Shown here piece after piece: positions 2,311-64,000 of a DNA stretch of 64,000 nucleotides. Made by a program: the position numbers and the translations under genes. The notes under the pieces are model-generated. The model was given only the letters and a program-made list of their open reading frames with translations, was not told the origin of the DNA and made no database searches. The DNA is from Campylobacteraceae bacterium (GTDB taxonomy: Bacteria; Campylobacterota; Campylobacteria; Campylobacterales; Sulfurovaceae), in the NCBI GenBank assembly GCA_027034975.1, contig JALVWQ010000066.1:4935-68934 (forward strand), written 5' to 3'. How positions within the stretch are numbered: position 1 is the stretch's first letter; each line of letters starts with the position of its first letter.

Positions 2311-2869
2311 ATGCCAAAAGATACATTTACCCTTATTGATAATAGAAATAATCAAAAATATGAGTAGCCAATACTAGACTCTACGAGAGGTCCAAAGGAA
2401 AAATATTAAAACCAAATTTTGCATTAGAGATTAATAATCTTTAGCAAATCATTTAGTCTAGGCATTTACCAAAATTCATCACTTAACCTACAGGTTAACA
2501 CAAGATTTATCAAACACCCTAAACAAAAGCATTTGCCAAATCTTTATTGATTCCAATGCAAAATTTGGGTTAAAAGAGATGCAAAAGCAGCTAAGTAGAG
2601 AGCTAAATTTAGATAACGAGCTTATGAGAATTGCACAAAAGATCGAATCAATAGCTCTTAGCGATGAGTGCTTTATAAGGCAAAAACTCTACCCAAATAT
2701 CGACTTCTACTCAGGTATAATCCTAACAGGGCTCAAGATCCCTCGCGAGATGTTTACTCCAATCTTTGTAATTGGAAGAACTGTAGGCTGGATAACCCAG
2801 CGGATAGAGAACCAGCTAGATCCTCACAGAAAGATTGTCCGCCCACGCCAACTCTATATTGGAAAGTAG
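2311..2869 (+). pseudogene. gltA: Citrate synthase remnant, centre replaced by a repeat
   Basis: Two ends of a citrate synthase survive. The 5' piece (ATG 2311) reads MPKDTFTLIDNRNNQKYE, then TAG at 2365, then PILDSTRGPK, which matches the family N-terminus; the TAG stands where Leu is expected. The 3' piece (about 2570-2869) encodes the last ~100 residues, with LYPNIDFYSGIIL, a GRTVGWI stretch and the terminal RPRQLYIG typical of the family. Roughly 300 central residues, with the catalytic histidines, are missing. In their place lies the palindromic element 2412-2569, whose end abuts gltA codons (LKEMQKQL). The gene cannot make an active enzyme. A second intact gltA elsewhere cannot be excluded. 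An autotroph running the reductive TCA cycle with ATP-citrate lyase could dispense with it (inference). Confidence 0.85.
2412..2569 (-). repeat. Palindromic repeat element, copy A (reverse orientation)
   Basis: The ends are CCAAATTTTGCATT and AATGCAAAATTTGGG (inverted). The inner arms match copies B (27792-27870) and C (46313-46405) but run in the opposite direction. The left arm carries AGAGATTAATAATCTTTAGCAAATC; the right arm, read in reverse, carries GGAATCAATAAAGATTTGGCAAATG. Copy A also holds about 65 extra bases between the arms, including a small TTAACC-TACA-GGTTAA hairpin. It lies exactly where the centre of gltA has been lost. Confidence 0.8.
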
Positions 2870-24748: not shown

Positions 24749-25936
24749 ATGAACAATCAGAAAAAAGTATTAATTTTAGGTGGCGGTTTTGCAGGACTTG
24801 AGGCTGCTATCTTCTTAAGAAAAGCAAATATTGATGTTACACTTATCTCAAATAGAGACTACTTCTATATCTATCCTACCTCTATTTGGATTCCCACAGG
24901 TGAAGCAAAGTTTGAAGATATTGCCGTCCCTTTAGAAGATCTCAGCAAAGCACATGGCTTTGAACTTATTATCGATGATGTCGAAGCAATCTATGCAAAA
25001 GAGAAGCGCGTTGTATGCAAAAAAGGAGAGTATAGTAGTGAATACTTGATTGTTGCAATAGGAAGCGGCAAAATGGAGCATGAGGGAAGTGAAAACTTTC
25101 TCTCTATCTGTGGTGAACCAGAAGAGTCAATCGCTATTAAAGAGCAGATTGATGCCCTTATTGCAAAAGGGAGCGGCAAAATAGCTATGGGATTTGGCGG
25201 CAACCCAAAAGATCCAAGTAATGTGCGTGGAGGCCCAGCATTTGAGGTGCTCTTTAATGTGCATAACCAACTCAAAAAATTGGGTATCCGTGACAAATTC
25301 GAACTAACCTTCTTTGCTCCAATGGCTGAGCCGGGTGCAAGAATGGGAAAACAAGCACTAAAAATGATGGATATCTTCTTTAAAAAACTCAATATCAATA
25401 CCCACTTTGGAAAAAAGATTAAAAGATTCGAAGATGACGGAATTATCTTTGAAGATGATAGCAAATTAGCAAGCGACTTTACCATGTTTATTCCTGCAGG
25501 AAATGGACATAAAGTCTTCCAAAATAGTGACCTTCCGCTCAACGAAGCAGGACTCATTAAAGTAAATGACTACTGCGAAGTGGTAGCCGAAGATGGCACA
25601 ATATTCGAAAAGACATTCGCTATCGGTGATAGTGTAGCACTTGAAGGTCCAGATTGGCGTGCAAAACAAGGTCATATTGCCGAGGTAATGGCAAGAAATA
25701 CCGCCTTCAATATCGAGCAAATCGAAAAAGGAGGCAGCGAACGAAAAGGATACAAAGAGCATCTTAATATCCTCTGCGTAATGGATAGCGGCGATGGTGC
25801 TGCCTTTGTCTACCGCGACAATAAGGGTGGTAAAATGATTCCTCTCCCAATTATTGGACACTGGCTCAAAAAAGGATGGGGCTGGTACTGTCGCAACTCA
25901 AAACTTGGCAAAATCCCAAGAATCCCTGGAATGTAA
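24749..25936 (+). CDS. SQR/NDH-2-like FAD-dependent oxidoreductase
   Basis: A 395-aa two-Rossmann flavoprotein. It has the N-terminal FAD site VLILGGGFAGLEAA (7-20), a second-domain region with AMGFGGNP, and the FAD-closing FAIGDSVAL. The family includes sulfide:quinone reductases, flavocytochrome c sulfide dehydrogenase and NDH-2. Cysteines occur at 90 and 121 and later in DYCEVV, ILCVMD and YCRNSK, but the spacing does not clearly reproduce the catalytic pair of characterised SQRs. The C-terminus has hydrophobic/aromatic residues (IIGHWLKKGWGWY) suited to membrane association. RBS AAGGAAAG. Sulfide or NADH as donor is undecided. Confidence 0.7.
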   Translation: MNNQKKVLILGGGFAGLEAAIFLRKANIDVTLISNRDYFYIYPTSIWIPTGEAKFEDIAVPLEDLSKAHGFELIIDDVEAIYAKEKRVVCKKGEYSSEYLIVAIGSGKMEHEGSENFLSICGEPEESIAIKEQIDALIAKGSGKIAMGFGGNPKDPSNVRGGPAFEVLFNVHNQLKKLGIRDKFELTFFAPMAEPGARMGKQALKMMDIFFKKLNINTHFGKKIKRFEDDGIIFEDDSKLASDFTMFIPAGNGHKVFQNSDLPLNEAGLIKVNDYCEVVAEDGTIFEKTFAIGDSVALEGPDWRAKQGHIAEVMARNTAFNIEQIEKGGSERKGYKEHLNILCVMDSGDGAAFVYRDNKGGKMIPLPIIGHWLKKGWGWYCRNSKLGKIPRIPGM

Positions 25937-25938
25937 AG

Positions 25939-26003
25939 AAGAAGCTGAGGGCTTAGAGCATAGAGCTCAAAGCTCAAAGCAAAAAATTCAAAATTCAAAA
26001 TTC
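25939..26003. repeat. Intergenic AGCT- and AATTC-type repeats
   Basis: GCTGAGGGCTTAGAGCATAGAGC (25944-25966) recurs exactly at 36249-36271. It is followed here by two TCAAAGC units and by ATTCAAAATTCAAAATTC (~25986-26003), a member of the second repeat family also found at 41851, 42328 and 58285. It fills the gap between the SQR-like and methyltransferase genes. Confidence 0.65.
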
Positions 26004-27791: not shown

Positions 27792-27870
27792 CCCAAATTT
27801 TGCAATAGAATTAGCAAAGATTTGACAAACGATTTGTTAAAGGTTGTTGATCTCTAATGCAAAATTTGGG
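27792..27870 (+). repeat. Palindromic repeat element, copy B
   Basis: A 79-bp element with perfect terminal inverted repeats CCCAAATTTTGCA/TGCAAAATTTGGG. Left arm GCAATAGAATTAGCAAAGATTT, right arm GATCTCTAATGC, related to copies A and C. It lies between the convergent rhodanese and oxygenase genes, where the hairpin could also act as a bidirectional terminator. Confidence 0.8.
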
Positions 27871-27939
27871 TAGTTCCCCAAGGGGAACATCTAAAAGAGT
27901 TTTTTGTTTCTATAATATTATAACTGCTCAACCTAAGTA

Positions 27940-36238: not shown

Positions 36239-36345
36239 AAAGCTAAGAGCTGAGGGCTTAGAGCATAGAGCCAACTAAGTAGCCATACTTAACTGTTTAA
36301 GTATCAAACAACTTTAATTGCTCTTGGCTCTTAGCTCTCAGCTTT
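36239..36345. repeat. Inverted AGCT-type repeats with nested hairpin
   Basis: AAGCTAAGAGCTGAGGGCTTAGAGC (from 36239) faces its approximate reverse complement GCTCTTGGCTCTTAGCTCTCAGCTT (to about 36345). Between them lies a perfect ATACTTAA-CTGT-TTAAGTAT hairpin (36285-36304). The block separates the divergent DUF808 and DedA genes. Family members also occur at 25939 and 58218. Confidence 0.6.
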
Positions 36346-40569: not shown

Positions 40570-41901
40570 CTACTCTTTCTCCTCTTGATAACTCACTTGA
40601 CTATGCAGATCAAAAAAGCCAACCATCTGCACTGACCCAATAACCTCAAATAAAATTGCATCGTAGATTCTATGAAAAACCTCAACTCCATTTTCATTAA
40701 TTGTCACACAACCCAAAGAGAGAGCATATTTACCTAATTGCATATTGGCATTTTGGGTAAAGGAAACAGTAATCTTCTCCCCCTTTTGGCAAGCTCCAAA
40801 GGACATATGCTTCATAAATGTATTTGTACCTGTGATCTCTAATCCCTTAGAATCCTTAAGAGTAAAGGCAAATATTGGCTCCTCTACCCTTTCGTTAAAT
40901 TTTACCTTCATCACAATATTAAACTCACTATCATAATCGATAATAGCAGTAGGATTGCCATCTTTATCTGTTATTCCATAATCGTATATCGTAGCCTTGC
41001 CATTCCCATAGGTATCAAGCTCTTTATGGGTATCAAAAGAGTCTCTTAAAAGTTTTGTTTCACCATCTTTATTATCACTCTCTACAAAATTCTCTTTGGC
41101 TTCATTATAAAAGTTACCTGAGAGTATCTTTTTAAAAGCATCTACAGCCATTTTGGGACTATCATCAAAAACTAGCTTTCCACCATCAATAACAATACCA
41201 CGGCTACAATAACGAATTACAGTATCAAGGGCATGAGTTACGAACAAAATTGTTCGCCCCTGCTCTTGAAAATCTTGAAATTTTTTAAAGCATTTCATCT
41301 GAAATGCCATATCCCCTACACTCAAAGCCTCATCTACAATTAAAATATCAGGCTCTACATTAATAGCAACAGAGAAAGCAAGCCTTGCAAACATTCCAGA
41401 GCTATACATTTTAACTGGCTGATAGATAAACTCTCCAATATCTGCAAACTCGATGATAGTATCGACTCTTTTATCCATCTCCTCTTTACTAAAGCCCATT
41501 AGCGTACCGTTTAGATAGATGTTCTCCATCCCGGTCATCTCTGGGTTAAAGCCAGCACCAAGCTCCAATAGCGATGCTATCTTTCCATTCACTTCTATCT
41601 TGCCAGAAGTTGGTGTTAGAACACCTGTTATCATCTTTAGAAGTGTCGATTTTCCAGCACCATTTTTTCCAATAATCCCAACTGTTTCACCCCGTTTTAC
41701 TTCGAAACTAACATTATCTATCGCATGAAAATCGTGATGATAACTTTTTTTAAACGGATTAAGGGCCTCTTTTAGCCGATCTTGCGGCTTATTATAGAGA
41801 TGGTAAACTTTGCTGAGATTCTCTACTTTAATTGCAATATCCGTATCTAATTTTGAATTTTGAATGCTAAATTTTGAATTATTCATTTGATTCTCTTTCA
41901 T
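40570..41901 (-). CDS. wzt: Wzt-type ABC ATPase with C-terminal glycan-binding domain
   Basis: A 443-aa O-polysaccharide exporter ATPase. Walker A GIIGKNGAGKS (~76-86), the family loop SLLELGAGFNPEMTGMENIYLNG, the signature YSSGMFARLAF and Walker B ILIVDEALSVGD are intact. The ~170-residue C-terminal domain (from ~270, with TIYDYGITD and beta-rich TGTNTFMKHMSF) matches Wzt-C domains that recognise modified chain ends. Residues 7-17 (NNSKFSIQNSK) are encoded by the intergenic AATTCAAAATTC repeat, so the 5' end has been rebuilt by repeat DNA. ATG 41886 (Met6) has a better-placed AAAGAG and may be the true start. Confidence 0.88.
   Translation of the reverse strand: MKENQMNNSKFSIQNSKLDTDIAIKVENLSKVYHLYNKPQDRLKEALNPFKKSYHHDFHAIDNVSFEVKRGETVGIIGKNGAGKSTLLKMITGVLTPTSGKIEVNGKIASLLELGAGFNPEMTGMENIYLNGTLMGFSKEEMDKRVDTIIEFADIGEFIYQPVKMYSSGMFARLAFSVAINVEPDILIVDEALSVGDMAFQMKCFKKFQDFQEQGRTILFVTHALDTVIRYCSRGIVIDGGKLVFDDSPKMAVDAFKKILSGNFYNEAKENFVESDNKDGETKLLRDSFDTHKELDTYGNGKATIYDYGITDKDGNPTAIIDYDSEFNIVMKVKFNERVEEPIFAFTLKDSKGLEITGTNTFMKHMSFGACQKGEKITVSFTQNANMQLGKYALSLGCVTINENGVEVFHRIYDAILFEVIGSVQMVGFFDLHSQVSYQEEKE
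41851..41894. repeat. AATTCAAAATTC-type repeat inside the wzt 5' end
   Basis: TTTTGAATTTTGAATGCTAAATTTTGAATTATTC on the plus strand: units of the same AT-rich repeat found at 25986, 42328, 58285 and 62871. Here it is translated as part of the Wzt N-terminus. Confidence 0.6.
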
Positions 41902-41947
41902 AAACTTATACTTTTGTTATTCATATTTAAAAATTCATAGTCCATGA

Positions 41948-42313
41948 TTATCTATCCTCTTTTTCTTGGGCTGTTTTAATTATGGATGTCAATATTTTTA
42001 CAAGTTCAGTAATTTCACTTTGCAAAGATTGCACATATTTATCATTTGAATCTAAATAGCTTGTAGATATTAGCAACTCTATCCAATACTGTGCCTCTCT
42101 AGCCTCCTTGCTTGCAATACTAATTTTTGCAATAAAATCTTTACTGCTTTGAGCCGCTTGTGCTTCATGAACATTTGCTCCAACAGATGTACCACAACGG
42201 AGTAACTGCTTAGAAAGAATATATTCTCTTTTTTTGTCGCAAAGAAATTTATACAAATTTACAATACGAACCGCAAATGCAAAAGATTTATCTAGAATAA
42301 TATTTTCTTTCAA
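41948..42313 (-). CDS. Four-helix-bundle protein (23S rRNA IVS-protein family)
   Basis: A 121-aa helical protein with the S23/IVP pattern: KSFAFAVRIVNLYKFL, LSKQLLRCGTSVGANVHEAQAAQSSKDFIAKISIASKEAREAQYWIELL and a final coiled helix. Members were first seen in rRNA intervening sequences, but most lie in ordinary loci with no known role. The start is TTG at 42313 after AAAGGA. The gene splits wzm from wzt and is flanked on both sides by ATTCA-type repeats, so it may be a late insertion. Confidence 0.82.
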   Translation of the reverse strand: MKENIILDKSFAFAVRIVNLYKFLCDKKREYILSKQLLRCGTSVGANVHEAQAAQSSKDFIAKISIASKEAREAQYWIELLISTSYLDSNDKYVQSLQSEITELVKILTSIIKTAQEKEDR

Positions 42314-42327
42314 TTAACAATTCCTTT

Positions 42328-42359
42328 AATTCAAAATTCATAATTCATCATTCATAATT
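42328..42359. repeat. AATTCAAAATTC/ATAATTCATCATTC repeat
   Basis: AT-rich short-unit repeat between wzm and the four-helix-bundle gene, sharing units with 58285-58312 (AATTCAAAATTCATCATTCA). No gene or promoter is evident in it. Confidence 0.6.
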
Positions 42360-42360
42360 A

Positions 42361-46275: not shown

Positions 46276-46312
46276 TTTACAAACGGTAACAATTTTAGGT
46301 TATATCTTTAAT

Positions 46313-46405
46313 CGCAAATTTTGCATTGGAATTGATAAAGATTTAGCAAATGTCCTAAACTAAATGATTTGCTAAAGGTTATTAATCTCTAATGCAAAAT
46401 TTGGG
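46313..46405 (+). repeat. Palindromic repeat element, copy C
   Basis: About 93 bp. Left end CGCAAATTTTGCATTGGAATTGATAAAG, right end ATTAATCTCTAATGCAAAATTTGGG. It is in the same orientation as copy B and closely matches copy A read in reverse. Its arms can form a long imperfect hairpin (TTTAGCAAAT/ATTTGCTAAA inside the terminal repeats). Confidence 0.8.
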
Positions 46406-46441
46406 TTAATATTAATGTTATTGACAAAGAGGGCTCCACTT

Positions 46442-49285
46442 ATGCCAAAGAGACAACTTTTTACACTATTTATTGTTATTGTTTCTATCTTCATTAGCTT
46501 TGCACTCCTACACCCTCTTGCTAAATATCTCCCACTTAGTGCAAATGAGTACTCTTTAGAGACACCTAAGATGAATAAACACCACAAACCACCACTCTTC
46601 TATCTACAAAATAATGGAATCTATTTTATTCATCCTGCATCTGAAGTAAATGCAACAGGAAAATTTACATTTAATAGTGATATATTGTTACACTTTCACT
46701 TCTCTATTCAAAAAGGGTCACCTGTTGGAAATATTCTTTTTGTTATAAAAAGAAACGATAGTGAGATACAAAAACTACTTGTAAATACTAAAAATGAAGC
46801 CTACTATAAAACAGCTGTTCATAAAGGAGACACCATTACTGTTATTGCCGATCCACTTGGTGCTACAGCAGGCGATTGGGGTAACTTAGAGCTTAAACAG
46901 TGCGAACCACACTACATTTTTAAACTAAGGCTTATCCCTCTCCTTTGGGCACTCTTTTTTATCTACCTTATGGGAAAAGGCCACTTTTTCATTGCACTCA
47001 ATAGCTATCTTGGTTTCTATATTACACTTATTGCTGAAAAACTCAATTTTGGTCCAATTCCATTTAATGATATAATGACTTACTCACTTCTCTTCTTTGC
47101 TTTATCATTTATCTTTACATTTCTCTATCAAGAGTTACGATTTGCTAAAAAGTTTAAAATCGCTACTATTCTCAGTTGGATAACAACAGTAACGCTCTAT
47201 AGTATACCACTAACATTTATAATCTACCCGCTCCTTTTTGGCAAACCTGTAAGCTGGGAGATACTCTTTACAATCTACCAAACAAATCCCAATGAAGCTT
47301 TAGAGTTTATTCAAGCATTTGTTTCAATAAAATACCTTTTATTTACAATAATTGCAACACTTGCTATTGGAGTGCTCTTGTGGCTACAAGAGAAGAAGGA
47401 GCATGCTATTATCGAGCGATCTCTATTGCTTTTTATTATTCTCTTTTTAAACTCTGTTGTTGCTACTGGTCTATTTGAACTTAGAATACCAAAAGAGATT
47501 CATGATAGCTTCTCTCTCTATTACGGAGAACTTTTAAAACAAAAAGAGTTCGAGAAAAAAAGGAGAGCCGGAGAGATTAAATTTAATGCAATCAAAAAAG
47601 AGCTTGGCGAAACATATGTTATTATTATTGGTGAGTCACTTAATAAATACCACACAAGCCTCTACAACTACTTTCGAAACACTACTCCCAAGCTCTCAGA
47701 ACAAGAGAACAATCGTTCACTTCTGCTCTTTAATAATGCCTTTGCAAACTATCCAGCTACTATGCAGGCTCTCTCATATGCCCTTACCGAAGCAAACCAA
47801 TATAATCATAAAAACTATTATGAGTCGCTCTCGCTTGTCGATATATTTAACAAAGCTGGGTTTGAAACATACTGGATAACCAATCAGCCAAATTTAAGTG
47901 ATATAGATAATGCTATCTCTTCCATAGCTCATGAAGCAGATACCTATATCCCATTAAATACCGCTGTGGGTGCACTAAATAGCCGCCACTTTACAAAATT
48001 TCATGATGGGGAAATAGTAAAGATTCTTCAAAAACTCCATTATATCAAACATAATTATAGCAAAAATAAAATAATCTTTATTCACCTTATGGGAAGCCAC
48101 CTCTTTTATAAAGAGCGTTATCCCCACTCGTTTACAAAATTTAAAGGGGAACACAAGCCCTATCTTTTTGGAAAAGAGAGAACATACTACAAAGACTCTA
48201 TAAATCTCCCAATTAACGATTATGATAATAGTGTTTACTATAATGACTATGTTGTAAATAGCATACTTACTTTGTTGCAAAAAGAGAATGGAGTTACTGG
48301 TTTACTCTACTTTGCAGACCATGGGGAGGATCCAACAAGAGGCTTAGGGCACTTTGCAGACCCTAAAATGTTCACCTACGAAATGATCCAAATACCACTG
48401 ATAGCTTGGTTTAGCAAAGAGTATAAACAACGCTATCCACAAAAATACAATACCTTTATCTCTAATAAAGAGAAACTATTCTCAAACGATCTTATCTATG
48501 ATACAGTTCTAGGATTAGCAAATATTCAAACCAAACACTATACCTCCATATATGACTTAAGCTCCCAAAAGTATCGTTTAGAGCCTCACAACGCTTTAAC
48601 ACTTCATGGAAAGCGACACTACAATGCTAAAGATAACTATCTCTATTGGCAAGAGTTCAATAGCAAACTTCTAAAAGAAAAAAATTTGCAAGATAAAATT
48701 ATTGTAAAGCATGCAAATACTGTTGGTAAAATAAATGATGCATGGAGATTAGGCTATCGATCATTTCAGCTAGACCTCTTTTATAACAAAACAAAAAAAC
48801 AGATACAAGCAGGTAGTGACAAAATCGATACTCTTGGGGGTATTGTTTCGATCTTTAAATATTTTCAACTCAACAAGATCTCCAAACTTCTCTTAGATAT
48901 TTCACACCTTAAAGATCTTAATGAGCAAGAGATGCTCCAAAGATTGGATAAGATAAATAACCAACTGCCTATAAAAGAAAAAACTCTCATTCTCTCCAAT
49001 AACTTATCACAACTTACACTACTGCATCAAAATGGCTGGAGAGTTGCCTATAAAATTAAAAATAGAAAAGATTTAACAAATAGCAATATATCCAATATGG
49101 ATGCTCTTCTTGTAAACACAAAACCATCTGTAGAGCTTGTTAACACCCTCAATTCAAAAACTCTAACAATCATTGATAACAATAATTCTATTGCAAATAG
49201 TCAATTCCAAAAGGGTATAGAAAGCTACTTAAACAAAAACAACTTCTACTATCTAATCGATTTTATTTCTGAATTTCACTTTTAA
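46442..49285 (+). CDS. Phosphoethanolamine-transferase-like protein with extra domains, paralogue 1
   Basis: A 947-aa protein starting at ATG 46442 (MPKRQLF aligns with paralogue 2); an in-frame start nine codons earlier is less likely. Order: membrane helix 1; periplasmic beta-sandwich (~35-150, with HPASEVNATGKFTF and ADPLGATAGDWGNL); four further helices (~160-350); a sulfatase-fold transferase with metal and nucleophile residues Glu398 (GESLNKY), Thr440 (ATMQALSYALTEA) and Asp626-His627 (ADHGED). A C-terminal domain (~735-947) starts VKHANTVGKINDAW (His757) with LDLFY, resembling GDPD/menorin-type TIM barrels. It probably decorates lipid A or a glycan with phosphoethanolamine. Confidence 0.8.
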   Translation: MPKRQLFTLFIVIVSIFISFALLHPLAKYLPLSANEYSLETPKMNKHHKPPLFYLQNNGIYFIHPASEVNATGKFTFNSDILLHFHFSIQKGSPVGNILFVIKRNDSEIQKLLVNTKNEAYYKTAVHKGDTITVIADPLGATAGDWGNLELKQCEPHYIFKLRLIPLLWALFFIYLMGKGHFFIALNSYLGFYITLIAEKLNFGPIPFNDIMTYSLLFFALSFIFTFLYQELRFAKKFKIATILSWITTVTLYSIPLTFIIYPLLFGKPVSWEILFTIYQTNPNEALEFIQAFVSIKYLLFTIIATLAIGVLLWLQEKKEHAIIERSLLLFIILFLNSVVATGLFELRIPKEIHDSFSLYYGELLKQKEFEKKRRAGEIKFNAIKKELGETYVIIIGESLNKYHTSLYNYFRNTTPKLSEQENNRSLLLFNNAFANYPATMQALSYALTEANQYNHKNYYESLSLVDIFNKAGFETYWITNQPNLSDIDNAISSIAHEADTYIPLNTAVGALNSRHFTKFHDGEIVKILQKLHYIKHNYSKNKIIFIHLMGSHLFYKERYPHSFTKFKGEHKPYLFGKERTYYKDSINLPINDYDNSVYYNDYVVNSILTLLQKENGVTGLLYFADHGEDPTRGLGHFADPKMFTYEMIQIPLIAWFSKEYKQRYPQKYNTFISNKEKLFSNDLIYDTVLGLANIQTKHYTSIYDLSSQKYRLEPHNALTLHGKRHYNAKDNYLYWQEFNSKLLKEKNLQDKIIVKHANTVGKINDAWRLGYRSFQLDLFYNKTKKQIQAGSDKIDTLGGIVSIFKYFQLNKISKLLLDISHLKDLNEQEMLQRLDKINNQLPIKEKTLILSNNLSQLTLLHQNGWRVAYKIKNRKDLTNSNISNMDALLVNTKPSVELVNTLNSKTLTIIDNNNSIANSQFQKGIESYLNKNNFYYLIDFISEFHF

Positions 49286-51492: not shown

Positions 51493-51645
51493 TTACACTC
51501 TAGCTTAGGAGTACAAGCAACTTATAGTCATAAAATCATCTACTAGAGATTGTTAATGATAAAGCAAATTTTTGCTTACACTCAACAATTAACATCGATA
51601 AACTTTTTTAATGCTATAATCACAAAAAATTTAAAAAGGTTTTTT

Positions 51646-54450
51646 ATGCCCAAACAGAGACTTTTGGTTCCATTTCTTATAGTTATTCTAATATTTATAT
51701 CTTTTATAGCAATCCATCCACTAGCAAAACTCTTACCCACCAAAGAACATATCGATTACACTTTAAAAACTCCAGGTATGAACAATCATCATCATCCACC
51801 TCTTTTTTATCTACAAGACAATGGTCTCTTTTTTGTGCATCCTGCTCTAGAGATTAACGCAACTGGAGTATTTACATTTAAAAAAAATAGTGAACTACTT
51901 TTACACTTCTCAATTCAAAAAGGTTCTCCAGTAGGGAATATGCTGTTTGTTGTAAAGAAAAATAACATATTTGATAATAAGTTTTTAGTTAATGTTAAAA
52001 ACGATATACACTATAGGCTTAAAGTTAACGCAAACGATAAAATCACCATTATTGCCGATCCACTAGGTGCAACTTCGGGAGATTGGGGTAATTTAGAGGT
52101 TAAGCAGTATGAACCTCGTTATATCTTTAAGCTGCGTCTTATCCCATTTCTTTGGGCTATCTTTTTTATTTATCTAATGGGTAAAGGTCATTTCTATATT
52201 GCACTCAATAGTTATATTGGATTCCTACTTACACTTATAGCAGAAAAAGTAACCTTTGGGCCACTCTCCTACAGCGATACAATTGGCTACACACTACTCT
52301 TTTTCTTTTTAGGACTCCTCTTTACACTCATCTACCAAGAGTTAAGATTCTTAAAAAAATTTAAAATAGCTACCCTTATTAGTTGGCTAGCAACAATAGT
52401 TATCTATTTTATTCCAATTGCATTTATCACATTTGCCTTAGTTTTTGGTAAACCAATCAATTGGGACATTCTTTTTGCAATCTACCAAACAAATCCAAAC
52501 GAAGCTGTTGAGTACCTCCAATCTTTTATACCTATGCAATACCTGCTGAGTGCTTTAGCAATTACCCTTCTAATAGGCTATCTATTATGGCGTCAAGAAT
52601 TAAAAGAGAAAAAGAGAATAGAGAGATCACTCCTCATATTTTTTATAGCTCTTTTGGGATCGATCCTCTCCTATACTCTCCCAAATATTCGTATTCCCCA
52701 TTTAATATTTGATAGCTTATCGCAATACAATGCCGATTTGCATCGCTTGGTTGAGTTTCAAGAAAACCACCGAAAATTAACTAAAAACTATAGAGCCACC
52801 AAAAAAGAGAAACAAGAGACATATGTCGTAATTATTGGTGAATCGCTCAATAAGTATAATATAGGTCTCTATGGACACTTCCGCAATACAACTCCACTTC
52901 TAGAAAATGCAAAAAAAGATAATCTACATCTCTTTAATAATGCCTACTCTAATGCTGGTAATACAATGCAAGTGCTCTCCTATGCTCTTACAGAGGCCAA
53001 TCAATACAATAAGAAAAAATACTATAACTCTCCATCATTTATCGATATTTTCAATAAAGCTGGATTTGATACATATTGGCTAGCAAGACAAGAGATCCTC
53101 GATCCTAATGTAGTCTCTATCCTTGCTCACGGTGCAAAACACTCAATCGATCTAGTTAACAAATTTAATGCCGATAGAAACTCTACAGCATATGAAGATG
53201 CAAAAGTAATACAAAGCTTTCAGAAATATCTAACTCAATCTAGAAATAGTGGGAAAAATAGACTTTTTATTATTCATCTCTATGGAAATCACTTTAAATA
53301 TAGTGATAGATATCCAAAGGAATTTAGCAAATTCCCTACAGCTAAACCATATATACTAGGAACAAACAACAGAGCCATTGTGGGAGATTACAGTGAATAT
53401 GACAATAGTATCTATTTTAATGACTATGTTGTAAACTCACTGCTTCAAATTCTCAAAAAAGAAGATGGCATCTCAACACTGCTCTATTTTTCAGATCACG
53501 GAGAAGATATAGGTAGGCATTTAGGTCACACCTCTAGACTTGAAAGTTTTACCTATGAAATGACCCAAATTCCACTTTTAGCTTGGTTTAGTCAAGAGTA
53601 TATCGATCGCTATCCTCAAAAATATAATACTCTCCTTTCTCATGCAAACTCACTCTTTTCTAACGATATGATATATGATACTATTATTGGTTTAGCAAAT
53701 ATTAAAACCAATCACTACAGTCCTACTTATGACCTAAGTTCACCAAAATACAAACTCAATCCTAAAGATGCTTTAACGCTTCACGGTAAAAAACGCTATA
53801 CAGCATCTGATAACTATATCTACTGGAGAGAGTACAATGCCAAACTTTTAAAAGGAAAAAGTTTCTACCCTAAGTTAGTTGCAAACGATACAGACTCAGT
53901 TGCAAAGCTAAACGAGGCATGGAACCTTGGATTTAGAGCATTTAAATTAAACCTTTACTATATGGCAGATAAAAAGAGTTTCCAAGCTGGTACAGACAAA
54001 TACGATACTGGCGGTAATTTAATTGATACTTTAAGCTATTTCAAAAAAGATAAAATAGAACACCTAATACTCCATTTAGCGAATCTCTCTAAAGATAATT
54101 TAAATGCTATTTTAGAAAGACTCAATACAATAAAATCAAAACTTCCATCAAAAGAGAAAATTACACTTTTAATAGAGAATAGTAACTTTATAAAAGCACT
54201 CAAAGCCAAGGGGTGGAGAGTAGCTCTTAAGAGCAGTCAACTTATTCAAAGCGGTGCAGACTCTCTTATGATTAATGCAAAAGGTATAAATAAAGAACAA
54301 ATCAAAAACTCCTCTACTTCTCTTATTATCAACCATGCCTTTAATCTTGCAGATAGCAAGTTAGAGAAGAAGTTAAATAGTTTAGAGTATCTCAACTCTA
54401 GCAATATTGGTGCTCTTTTGGTTGATTTTAAGTCAGAGTTTAAGTGGTAA
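51646..54450 (+). CDS. Phosphoethanolamine-transferase-like protein with extra domains, paralogue 2
   Basis: A 934-aa full-length paralogue of the 46442 gene. I chose ATG 51646, with AAAAAGG 6 nt upstream; an in-frame start at 51550 adds a non-conserved leader. Same layout: helix, beta-sandwich (ADPLGATSGDWGNL), helices, sulfatase-fold transferase with Glu399, Thr440 (NTMQVLSYALTEA) and Asp617-His618 (SDHGED), and the C-terminal barrel-like domain. In that domain the GDPD/menorin-type His and acidic pair are degraded (LVANDTDSVAKLNEAW, KLNLYY), more so than in paralogue 1. Two copies may modify different acceptors or differ in regulation. Confidence 0.8.
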   Translation: MPKQRLLVPFLIVILIFISFIAIHPLAKLLPTKEHIDYTLKTPGMNNHHHPPLFYLQDNGLFFVHPALEINATGVFTFKKNSELLLHFSIQKGSPVGNMLFVVKKNNIFDNKFLVNVKNDIHYRLKVNANDKITIIADPLGATSGDWGNLEVKQYEPRYIFKLRLIPFLWAIFFIYLMGKGHFYIALNSYIGFLLTLIAEKVTFGPLSYSDTIGYTLLFFFLGLLFTLIYQELRFLKKFKIATLISWLATIVIYFIPIAFITFALVFGKPINWDILFAIYQTNPNEAVEYLQSFIPMQYLLSALAITLLIGYLLWRQELKEKKRIERSLLIFFIALLGSILSYTLPNIRIPHLIFDSLSQYNADLHRLVEFQENHRKLTKNYRATKKEKQETYVVIIGESLNKYNIGLYGHFRNTTPLLENAKKDNLHLFNNAYSNAGNTMQVLSYALTEANQYNKKKYYNSPSFIDIFNKAGFDTYWLARQEILDPNVVSILAHGAKHSIDLVNKFNADRNSTAYEDAKVIQSFQKYLTQSRNSGKNRLFIIHLYGNHFKYSDRYPKEFSKFPTAKPYILGTNNRAIVGDYSEYDNSIYFNDYVVNSLLQILKKEDGISTLLYFSDHGEDIGRHLGHTSRLESFTYEMTQIPLLAWFSQEYIDRYPQKYNTLLSHANSLFSNDMIYDTIIGLANIKTNHYSPTYDLSSPKYKLNPKDALTLHGKKRYTASDNYIYWREYNAKLLKGKSFYPKLVANDTDSVAKLNEAWNLGFRAFKLNLYYMADKKSFQAGTDKYDTGGNLIDTLSYFKKDKIEHLILHLANLSKDNLNAILERLNTIKSKLPSKEKITLLIENSNFIKALKAKGWRVALKSSQLIQSGADSLMINAKGINKEQIKNSSTSLIINHAFNLADSKLEKKLNSLEYLNSSNIGALLVDFKSEFKW

Positions 54451-58217: not shown

Positions 58218-58314
58218 GAAGCTAAGAGCTCAGAGCCCAGAGCTTAGAGCTAAATTGTTTATCTCTTCAAAAACCAAATACATTCAGAATTCAAAATTCA
58301 TCATTCAACATTAA
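58218..58314. repeat. AGCT- and AATTC-type repeats inside the efflux operon
   Basis: AAGCTAAGAGCTCAGAGCCCAGAGCTTAGAGCT (58219-58252), then AGAATTCAAAATTCATCATTCAACATT (58285-58312). This repeat DNA fills the 122-bp gap between the TolC-like and fusion-protein genes, the only sizeable gap in the operon. Confidence 0.6.
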
Positions 58315-60335: not shown

Positions 60336-62009
60336 ATGAAACGGGTACATCTCATTTCTCTTTTGATCATCCTTTTAACAAGCTCTCTTTTTGCCCTAAG
60401 CGATAAAGAGTTAGCACGCTCTATCAATCTTGCTGGAAAGCAGCGAATGCTTACACAAAAGATGAGCAAAGAGGCTCTATTAATCCGCTCAAAAATCGAT
60501 ACAGAAGAGAATATTAAAAAATTAAAGCAGAGTAGCTCACTCTTTGATAAAACTCTCAAAGGGTTAATGAATGGCGATAGTTCACTCCATCTAGTAGTCG
60601 TTAATGATCCGAAAATTAAAGAGCAGTTGCAAAGAGTGCAAAAGTTGTGGGATCCATTCTATCAACATATAAAAGAGATTATCAATGCAAAAGCAGATGA
60701 TAAAAGCTACAGCTACATAGAGAGCCACAACCTAGAGCTACTAAAAGAGATGAACAAAGCAGTCTCTCTCTACTCTTCACAAGATAAATCAAACGGCTCA
60801 TTTAAACTTGCTAACGATATTAACCTTGCTGGGAAACAGCGAATGCTTACTCAAAAGATGGCAAAAGATCTCCTTTTTATCAATAACAACTTTAAAAAGG
60901 AGGAGTATTTAAAAGATTTTCAAAACTCAAAAGAGCTCTTTACAAAAACGCTCGATGGTCTCTTTAATGGAAGCAGCGAACTCAATCTTAAAGGGACAAA
61001 ACTACCAATGATTACCAAAAAACTCCAAGTTGTCAAAAAATTATGGCAAGAGGAGCAACCACTGCTCGATTCTGCCCAAAAAGGCGAAAAACTCAAAGAG
61101 GCAATAGCGGCACTCGATAATACACTTGTAAAGATGAATGAGGCTGTTGTAAGCTATACAAAATCCCTCAATAGGCAAAAACAAATACTTGCTCTTAACT
61201 CAATAATTAGCGGCTTTTTAAATAATCAAGCCCAAAATAAAAAACGAGTAAACCTCTCTGGAAAGCAGCGAATGCTTACACAAAGAATGAGTAAACTAGC
61301 TCTTTTAAGTGCACTCAATATCGATAGAGAAAACAATACAAAAGCATTAATTGCAGATGCAAAACTCTACAACAAAACCTTAAATGCATTCTTAAAAGGT
61401 GATAAAGATTTAGGCATAGAACCCTGTACTCAAAAGAGTATAAAAGAGCAAGTTACACTCCTTCAATCAAAGTGGCAACCATTCCTAGAGGCAATCATTA
61501 AAATTGTAAAAAATCAAGATAGCGATGGTAAGGCTCTTAACTATATTATAGAGCACAATGAAGATCTCTTAAAAGAGTCAAATGAGCTTGTTAATCGCTG
61601 TGTAGCTGCCTCTCCAACAAAAAACTTTCTTGAGAAAGCAATGCTCAATGTCATTAATATTGCGGGTCGTCAGCGTATGCTTACACAAAAGATGACAAAA
61701 GAGAAACTCCTTATCGAAACAAAAAATTTACCTTACCAAAAGAAGCTCCAAGAGACAGTTGCCCTCTTTGATAGCTCGCTCCAAAAACTTATAAAAGGTG
61801 ATGCCGAAAATAAAATTGTAAAACCAACAGAAAAAAAGGTAAAAGAGCAACTAGATAAAATTGCCGCTCTTTGGACAAAACTTAAGCCACTCTATCTCAA
61901 AAAGCACCTCTCCAAAGAAGATTTACAAACAATTATTAAAGAAAACCCTACTCTCCTCTTTGAGATGAATAAAATGGTCAATATGGCCGAACACTCACTA
62001 GAGTATTAA
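60336..62009 (+). CDS. Periplasmic protein of four PilJ/NarX-type sensor repeats
   Basis: A 557-aa protein with a signal peptide (1-20, ending LFALS) and no other membrane segment. Four copies of an ~135-residue helical module each begin with the PilJ/NarX P-box-like motif: NLAGKQRMLTQKM (31-43), again at 163-175, NLSGKQRMLTQRM (306-318), NIAGRQRMLTQKM (441-453). Each module continues with LFxKTLxGLxxG and a late NxxLLxxMNxxV. In NarX and NarQ this motif belongs to the nitrate/nitrite-binding sensor; PilJ uses a related domain. There is no kinase, HAMP or methyl-accepting domain, so it may be a soluble ligand binder. A terminator follows. Confidence 0.8.
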   Translation: MKRVHLISLLIILLTSSLFALSDKELARSINLAGKQRMLTQKMSKEALLIRSKIDTEENIKKLKQSSSLFDKTLKGLMNGDSSLHLVVVNDPKIKEQLQRVQKLWDPFYQHIKEIINAKADDKSYSYIESHNLELLKEMNKAVSLYSSQDKSNGSFKLANDINLAGKQRMLTQKMAKDLLFINNNFKKEEYLKDFQNSKELFTKTLDGLFNGSSELNLKGTKLPMITKKLQVVKKLWQEEQPLLDSAQKGEKLKEAIAALDNTLVKMNEAVVSYTKSLNRQKQILALNSIISGFLNNQAQNKKRVNLSGKQRMLTQRMSKLALLSALNIDRENNTKALIADAKLYNKTLNAFLKGDKDLGIEPCTQKSIKEQVTLLQSKWQPFLEAIIKIVKNQDSDGKALNYIIEHNEDLLKESNELVNRCVAASPTKNFLEKAMLNVINIAGRQRMLTQKMTKEKLLIETKNLPYQKKLQETVALFDSSLQKLIKGDAENKIVKPTEKKVKEQLDKIAALWTKLKPLYLKKHLSKEDLQTIIKENPTLLFEMNKMVNMAEHSLEY

Positions 62010-62870: not shown

Positions 62871-62895
62871 AATTCACAATTCACAATTCTTAATT
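62871..62895. repeat. AATTCACAATTC repeat
   Basis: AATTCACAATTCACAATTCTTAATT, a variant of the AATTC-type repeat family. It overlaps the last codons of the transpeptidase-like gene. Confidence 0.5.
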
Positions 62896-64000
62896 TTTAA
62901 CTCTCCATCCCCCTCCATCAACTACATTATAGCGACCATTCACTACTTCTATCGTAGGCACCCTATGGCTCTTCTCAAAGGCATCATACCCCTCTTTAAG
63001 ATTCAACCAAAACTTATACCACCTGCTCTTTTTATGGCGAGCTAAATTGATCTTTGTCATACGGAATGGAAAGATATGGACACTTACACTCTCTTGTCCA
63101 TTTAAAAGTGCCTTCTCTACTAACATATAGATATCATCAATATTTCTATCACCCATTGCATAACATCCAACAGATTTACACTTACCATGCACCATTAAGT
63201 AGCTACCAGTATAGCCATGATACCTATCATAGAGATTAGGAAAACCTAAATTAAAAGAGAGATGGTAGTTGCTATGTGGATTGAGAGCAGAGTAATTAAC
63301 ACTATAAAAACCCTCGGGACTCTTCTTATCGCCTTGCATCAATTTTGGTCCAAGTCCACCAGAGTATTTACAGATTCCATATATCTTCAAAAGCTTATAG
63401 CGACTCGATTTCTTTGGCTTAATCCACACCTCCAACTCGCTGTTCTTTTTAAAAATACGGATAAATATAGGATCCCCTACCCTTGCCCCAACTCGCTTGA
63501 GTGCAACTTTGAGCGGCTCCTTTTTTGCCTTTAGCCAAAGGCTCTTCTTTGCAAGTGATGGCAAAGTTTGCTTCTTTTGGCTCTTTTTTATTTTAGGAAT
63601 CTGTGGTAGCATTAACTCTCCATATATAGTATAATTCTCTTCACTCTCTTTTACCATATCTACACTACTACCATTCTCTTCACTAGCAACTTGGGTTACA
63701 TTACTCTCTACCTCTATCTGTTGCATAGTACTCTTTTTCCCAGCCAAGACCTCTAAAGATTCTCTATCCTCCTTCGTTACGCTACTATTCTTTTCGCTTT
63801 TGAGTATTGATTCAATAGTAAAACGAAGCCTCTTGCTACGATTCTTCTCAATACCTTTATCTAACTCTTTTACCTTACTGCTCTTTTGTTCGATACTCTT
63901 ATTTAAATCTTCTACTCTACTGCTATTTTGCTCTTTTTGGATCTTAGGCTCTTGAACTCCCTGCTTCTCCTCTTGCTCTAAAACTGTTACTTTTTCACTC
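62890..64000 (-). CDS. YafK-like L,D-transpeptidase-fold protein (5' partial)
   Basis: The frame stays open to the right edge, so the N-terminus is missing; a TTG at 63747 exists but coding clearly continues upstream. About 90 visible N-terminal residues are charged and contain a repeated ~14-residue unit (EQNSSRVEDLNKSI, EQKSSKVKELDKGI). The C-terminal YkuD-type domain has IKPKKSSRYKLLKIYGICKYSGGLGPK, GDKKSPEGFY, and the active-site MVHGKCKSVGCYAMGD (His and Cys of the HxxxxGC motif), followed by IDDIYMLVEKAL. This variant is typical of E. coli YafK/DpaA and Helicobacter Csd6-like enzymes that trim or unlink peptidoglycan. Its role here is inferred. Confidence 0.82.
   Translation of the reverse strand, partial: SEKVTVLEQEEKQGVQEPKIQKEQNSSRVEDLNKSIEQKSSKVKELDKGIEKNRSKRLRFTIESILKSEKNSSVTKEDRESLEVLAGKKSTMQQIEVESNVTQVASEENGSSVDMVKESEENYTIYGELMLPQIPKIKKSQKKQTLPSLAKKSLWLKAKKEPLKVALKRVGARVGDPIFIRIFKKNSELEVWIKPKKSSRYKLLKIYGICKYSGGLGPKLMQGDKKSPEGFYSVNYSALNPHSNYHLSFNLGFPNLYDRYHGYTGSYLMVHGKCKSVGCYAMGDRNIDDIYMLVEKALLNGQESVSVHIFPFRMTKINLARHKKSRWYKFWLNLKEGYDAFEKSHRVPTIEVVNGRYNVVDGGGWRVKN

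Follow-up and report, generated by a model that had tools for sequence, protein, structure and literature searches.

We identified three palindromic elements, copies A, B and C, in the window, the whole stretch of 64,000 nucleotides that was analyzed. We believe, with a probability of about 88%, that they are copies of a non-autonomous MITE of the IS1380 family. The initial annotation had described three elements with common ends and two distinct inner arm sequences, copy A being reversed relative to B and C, and the sequence and covariance-model matches (E values of 2e-24 to 5e-13) bear this out at all three places (Table 1). The "internal insert" that it saw in copy A is instead the ordinary middle of the element. 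Copy A is thus the standard full-length form, while B and C lack 83 bp and 69 bp, respectively, of the 162-bp family norm. Copies A and C have both kept a perfect 5-bp target duplication (TTAAA and TTAAT), while comparison of the flanks of copy B gave no matching duplication (TTAAA/TAGTT). There are also terminal variants, with copy A beginning ACC and copy C beginning CGC.

Table 1. Repeat elements and target-site duplications in the window
Feature	Position	Strand	Basis
Copy A, full-length MITE, 159 bp	2411..2569	- (relative to family + strand)	Covariance-model match, 123.6 bits; aligns with 162-bp copies
Copy A, left target-site duplication TTAAA	2406..2410		Sequence and duplication statistics
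Copy A, right target-site duplication TTAAA	2570..2574		Sequence and duplication statistics
Copy B, 79-bp internal-deletion derivative, both ends intact	27792..27870	+	Covariance-model match, 71.3 bits
Copy C, 93-bp internal-deletion derivative	46313..46405	+	Covariance-model match, 72.5 bits
Copy C, left target-site duplication TTAAT	46308..46312		Sequence and duplication statistics
Copy C, right target-site duplication TTAAT	46406..46410		Sequence and duplication statistics
Dispersed degenerate short-unit repeats (AAGCTAAGAGCTGAGGGCTTAGAGC-like, ATTCATAATTCATCATTCATAATTA-like)	25935-26002, 36240-36274, 58219-58313, 41848-41881, 41919-41950, 42329-42360, 62872-62903		

The family, its size classes and its target sites

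A genome-wide search with copy B, which the initial annotation had proposed, recovered about 40 family sites in the source genome (1.77 Mb, 68 contigs), and the outcome that would have refuted the initial annotation, no further copies, did not occur. By aligning and orienting the copies, we arrived at an intergenic unit of 162 bp running CCC...GGG. Site lengths in this genome are mostly 67 to 188 bp with no transposase gene inside, and they fall into size classes of 162 bp (the majority), 188 bp, 93 bp, 79 bp and 67 to 68 bp. Terminal inverted repeats CCCAAATTTTGCATTAGA are found at both ends of the own-genome copies, and between subfamilies both ends change together.

The 188-bp form is due to a common 26-bp apical insert that is present in other copies and absent from A. 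The insert, GCAAGTSTGGRTTCCCWWCGGTYA, is carried by L007, L017, L019, L078 and others, as well as by copies L114 and L116 of genome G003. Looking across the genus, we found that two species carry it in the left arm, while G003 has it, in the same orientation, in the right arm near the mirror position (or apparently in both arms). Some contigs of G003 have two copies of the insert 57 to 60 bp apart. Copy L138 in genome G063 has, at roughly this position, another insert of comparable size that differs from it.

As read from the alignment, the deletion junctions fall at short direct repeats inside the palindrome (AAATGC/AAATGC, ATTTG/ATTTG), which points to replication slippage as the likely cause of the deletion forms. 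Copies B and C would then have been derived from full-length copies through deletion between such repeats in the stem, the AAATGC pair among them. Very short pairs of MITE ends, 47 to 92 bp in all, were seen at G063:374930-374993, G212:1276885-1276931 and G212:2116592-2116683 and are probably extreme deletion forms.

Several other features lie next to the copies. A 96-aa ORF at 2579-2869 (+) adjoins the right side of copy A, starting a few bases past its right duplication. Its product corresponds to the C-terminal end of citrate synthase (positions 269-357 of the 357-position PF00285 profile, E 1e-26), and nothing of the N-terminal part lies upstream, which makes it a gene remnant. Immediately to the right of copy B, the one without a target duplication, is a perfect short hairpin, GTTCCCCAAGGGGAAC, at 27873-27892; the right boundary of copy B has possibly been rearranged. 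Copy C stops 9 bp ahead of a sulfatase-family (PF00884) ORF at 46415-49285, and a PF00884 paralogue lies about 5 kb away at 51550-54450 (956 and 966 aa, respectively). Elsewhere in the window, 60336-62009 encodes one 557-aa protein with four tandem PilJ N-terminal domains (PF13675, four stretches), and two other types of dispersed intergenic repeat, both degenerate and short-unit, are listed in Table 1.

Target-site duplications, which had also been suggested as a check, proved to be 5 bp long at TTWAA. An exact 5-bp direct repeat outside CCC...GGG is present in 21 of the 35 source-genome copies that have both ends. In 5000 trials with shuffled right flanks, exact repeats averaged 6.7 and never exceeded 14. 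No other repeat length stands out at these two-ended copies. The exact duplication also occurs in 45 of 84 full-length copies, which come from eight genus genomes and one neighboring-family contig, and in 31 of 43 copies from nine families.

We then have three alignments of related genomes in which one partner is without the element: L129 versus L174 (84% identity), L136 versus L169 (90%) and L068 versus L021 (79%). None of the three element-free partners is a perfectly clean pre-insertion site, with indels close by, and the L174 site retains eight extra bases with CCGGG, in what looks like a deletion scar. Taken together, the copy number, the duplications and the presence of sites occupied in one species and empty in another argue that the element is mobile DNA. 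It has the features of a MITE in being short, gene-less and present in many copies, with terminal inverted repeats, a fixed-length duplication and an autonomous relative in sister genera.

Relationship to IS1380 transposases

The ends and the 5-bp AT-rich duplication pointed, by comparison with ISEcp1, to the IS1380 family, a lead that was afterwards tested. ISEcp1 is a well-studied IS1380 member and makes 5-bp duplications (PMC2887853). Of the 175 genomes of the family, 8 have PF13701 transposases, as do 16 of 399 genomes of the order, where several are weak matches. The transposase is the NCBIfam IS1380 equivalog (NF033539), scoring 334.9 bits against a cutoff of 180. The search for a full-length transposase element that had been called for thus led to complete IS1380 elements of about 1.66 kb with similar ends in sister genera. 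Their left ends are CCCAAATCCGTAAATAGAAAA, CCCAAATAACGAAATAGAAAAA and CCCAAGAATCGAAATAGAAAAA, their right ends are of the type CCCAAATCACGAAATAGAGATT, and they are flanked by 5-bp duplications (TTAAA, TTTAT, ATTAT, ATCAT, TCCAA and TTCTA).

The closest match to these ends belongs to the MITE subfamily of families f4 and f6, which falls in the same covariance-model family as the own-genome copies. This subfamily has the left end CCCAAATCTCGAAATAGAATAG and, in f4, the right end CCCAAATCTCGAAATAGAGATAG, the latter sharing 20 of 22 positions with one IS right end; overall, its ends are up to 18 to 20 of 22 identical to those of IS1380. The own-genome ends match at 11 to 17 of 22 positions. The elements share with the IS1380 ISs similar terminal inverted repeats (CCCAAAT..CGAAATAGA), a TAGA inner part and 5-bp AT-rich duplications. 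They also share the left/right asymmetry of one such IS, where TAGAAT/TAGAGAT in the window corresponds to TAGAAA/TAGAGAT. Unlike these ISs, the MITE is 162 bp rather than about 1660 bp and has no transposase gene, and the compared ends are unrelated past the first 20 or so bases. Ends and a 4- to 5-bp AT-rich duplication as in the IS1380 family are therefore present, more weakly for the own-genome subfamily given its lower end identity. Since 162 bp leaves no room for the gene, we filed the element as an IS1380-family MITE and not as IS1380.

No IS1380 transposase was found in any of the 12 genomes of the genus, and across the family the MITE is in 71 of the 175 genomes versus 8 for the transposase. 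We therefore infer that in this genus the family either has been orphaned or owed its movement to an enzyme that arrived and later disappeared. In the mechanism that we propose, an IS1380 transposase (DDE, PF13701) acting in trans would cut at the CCC/GGG ends, which would then be joined to a target staggered by 5 bp. The enzyme would have entered the genus from outside and later been lost there.

The empty search of the 12 genus genomes and the divergence of the own-genome ends could also mean that the MITE belongs to another DDE insertion-sequence family, with ends that happen to be IS1380-like. PF01609 transposases, which occur in 5 of the 12 genomes, would be candidates. However, the ends at all six PF01609 loci fail to match, while the f4/f6 ends approach identity with IS1380 and come with the same type of 5-bp duplication; we consider this origin improbable.

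Other candidate sources were examined and set aside. A search for a longer element by end pattern in three complete genomes returned short pairs only, and a solo left end on contig C52 has no transposase downstream. Weakly PF13701-like proteins of 459 to 466 aa in other families have ends of a different kind (ACTCAACTTTCGCAC). These transposases mark a second IS type, with ends ACTCAACTTTCGCACATAAA, at L235, L242, L243 and others (genomes G227, G263 and G235).

Hairpin fold, strand bias and orientation

The entire unit forms one imperfect hairpin of 68 consensus pairs. Among 53 copies, 40 of the 68 pairs are changed on both sides, in 269 two-sided cells, compared with 86.6 in shuffled controls and 26 to 50 when the partners were slid. 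Covariation between the arms, the lack of which would have counted against the initial annotation, thus exceeds random.

The hairpin is also strand specific. The + strand is more stable in 84 of 84 copies (mean of -68.5 versus -42.9 kcal/mol), as it is in all 43 of the distant copies. The strand-bias test is not circular for the genus copies, which took their orientation from a sequence-only profile; distant copies were oriented by the covariance model. In a strand-neutral test, we folded by Watson-Crick pairs only and then scored the single mismatches between them. G.T outnumbered A.C by 214 to 19 in the genus set and by 103 to 12 in other genera and families, with no genome reversed, although the bias was measured on related copies and the counts are inflated as a result. 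Some wobble pairs are fixed, e.g., at columns 54/110, 55/109 and 59/105. The + strand has long kept its RNA-like pairing, through G.T wobbles, and the - strand has not.

Two-sided changes would also result if the arms correct each other by template switching at a quasi-palindrome, making the covariation a by-product at the DNA level with the fold unselected. This explanation bears on the fold alone and does not conflict with an IS1380 MITE. Copy L079, whose rewritten apical arm now complements the other arm perfectly, speaks for it. Such correction does occur and may add to the two-sided changes. However, template switching cannot give a tenfold strand-specific excess of G.T over A.C, nor can it keep fixed wobbles at the columns above. 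As a full account of the fold, we think it unlikely.

Changes private to one copy, which are recent, look different, with 68 to G.T, 52 to A.C and 115 other mismatches, which is near neutral. The contrast between shared and private changes has a p value of 3e-14, an optimistic figure in that the cells are not independent and the two counts were ascertained differently. Because the bias is strong in shared changes and nearly absent in private ones, the fold seems to be selected on the spreading lineage rather than on individual resident copies. The folded + strand, as RNA or, less likely, as single-stranded DNA, would then help the element lineage persist or spread, as the bias lies in changes found in many copies and hardly at all in those found in one.

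An alternative is that a host regulatory or terminator RNA is conserved at each site, with mobility secondary. The fold and, in part, the internal loops are indeed conserved across families, and simple ORF-based gene calls gave more convergent than divergent gene pairs at the insertion sites (43 versus 23 of 126). However, private changes break pairs freely, and resident copies therefore look unconstrained. The same gene calls also gave no bias in orientation relative to co-directional flanking genes (30 the same, 30 opposite). A host RNA of this kind is quite improbable. By those gene calls, just 4 of 136 copies fall within ORFs of at least 80 aa.

We also compared orientation with replication. 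Among 32 copies from three complete genomes of genus g9 (Sulfurovum-like), 29 have the + strand opposite to the leading-strand sense, as do 28 of 44 from a fourth complete genome (family f4) and, with local GC skew as the proxy, 18 of 25 own-genome copies. The pooled figure is 75 of 101 (p ~1e-6, which is optimistic in that sister species have some insertions in common, e.g., L131 and L137). For the complete genomes, dnaA lies at the first bases in G065, G063 and G212, the origin of G062 was assumed to be at base 1, and the terminus was taken as the half-way point in all four. Insertion may be linked to the replication fork; alternatively, copies may be lost at a higher rate when their stable hairpin falls on the lagging-strand template.

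A strand-specific hairpin with biased orientation to replication is also what one might see if the unit were REP/BIME-like or of the IS200/IS605 type, with a Y1 transposase moving it as a folded single strand. Movement by Y1 enzymes makes no target duplication, so the 5-bp duplication already contradicts it. Moreover, the stably folding strand is opposite to the leading-strand sense and is thus not the lagging-strand template that such movers use, and neither REP size nor REP ends fit. We regard this origin as extremely improbable. REP/REPIN units are likewise palindromic intergenic repeats, but they are 20 to 40 bp (PMC3733652), linked to Y1 and without target duplication, and the features of REP/IS200-type units were not found here. 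The initial annotation had offered "MITE or REP-like". The first half stands, given the copy number, duplications, occupied and empty sites and complete IS1380 elements with similar ends. The second half does not, given the 162-bp unit, its 5-bp duplication, its DDE-type ends and an orientation opposite to the Y1 prediction.

Returning to the IS1380 MITE, we tentatively suggest that the folded + strand could be an active part of the life cycle, though we hold this to be doubtful. RNA or single-stranded DNA from source copies might be needed for IS1380-mediated spread or protect it, which would explain a structured 162-nt molecule of nearly fixed length in at least nine Campylobacterales families.

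Distribution and related repeat families

To follow the family further, we used a covariance model, R1, built from the 53 copies. The 71 matching genomes of the family cover 8 of its 11 genera, and 45 of 399 genomes sampled from the order matched, in 17 of 87 genera. A phylum-wide sample gave no matches outside the order, and searches of plasmids and phages for the element gave none. The named public contigs that match exactly come from Campylobacteraceae/Campylobacterales metagenome bins. The 43 distant copies that we read whole are 156 to 168 bp, except for one of 189 bp. Rfam 15 gave no match over the window at the gathering score. To judge by Rfam and the papers searched, the family, with its order-wide distribution, is new.

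Among known repeats, ERIC and Correia elements are the nearest analogues in how they work, with ends and a duplication that, as described, differ from those found here. Both duplicate TA, as opposed to the 5-bp TTWAA of the Campylobacterales MITE, and internal-deletion forms exist for the Correia elements of Neisseria. Like ERIC, our element is an intergenic, palindromic MITE found in more than one bacterial family; like Correia, it has internal-deletion forms and an RNA hairpin, which in our case is predicted. Both are set apart by description: ERIC hosts are Enterobacteriaceae and Vibrionaceae and not Campylobacterales, and Correia elements belong to a different host group and have no known IS1380 link. 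ERIC gives hairpin transcripts, with 3' copies reported to affect mRNA decay, and RNase III cuts transcripts containing a Correia element (PMC10969869). Another short, many-copy repeat is bcr1 of the Bacillus cereus group, in a class of 100 to 400 bp with an associated TTTAT motif (PMC6542083). That motif is close to TTWAA, but bcr1 is restricted to the B. cereus group and is likewise set apart by description.

The element offers a natural test case for whether the hairpins of MITEs are selected as RNA structures or are simply inverted repeats, and the contrast between shared and private mutations can be used on other bacterial MITEs, such as ERIC and Correia. Should the fold matter for mobility, this would be a DDE transposon system with an RNA or single-strand component, of which we know of no description. 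For the Campylobacterales themselves, these data put a name to a mobile element that is common in vent and marine members, together with its likely transposase.
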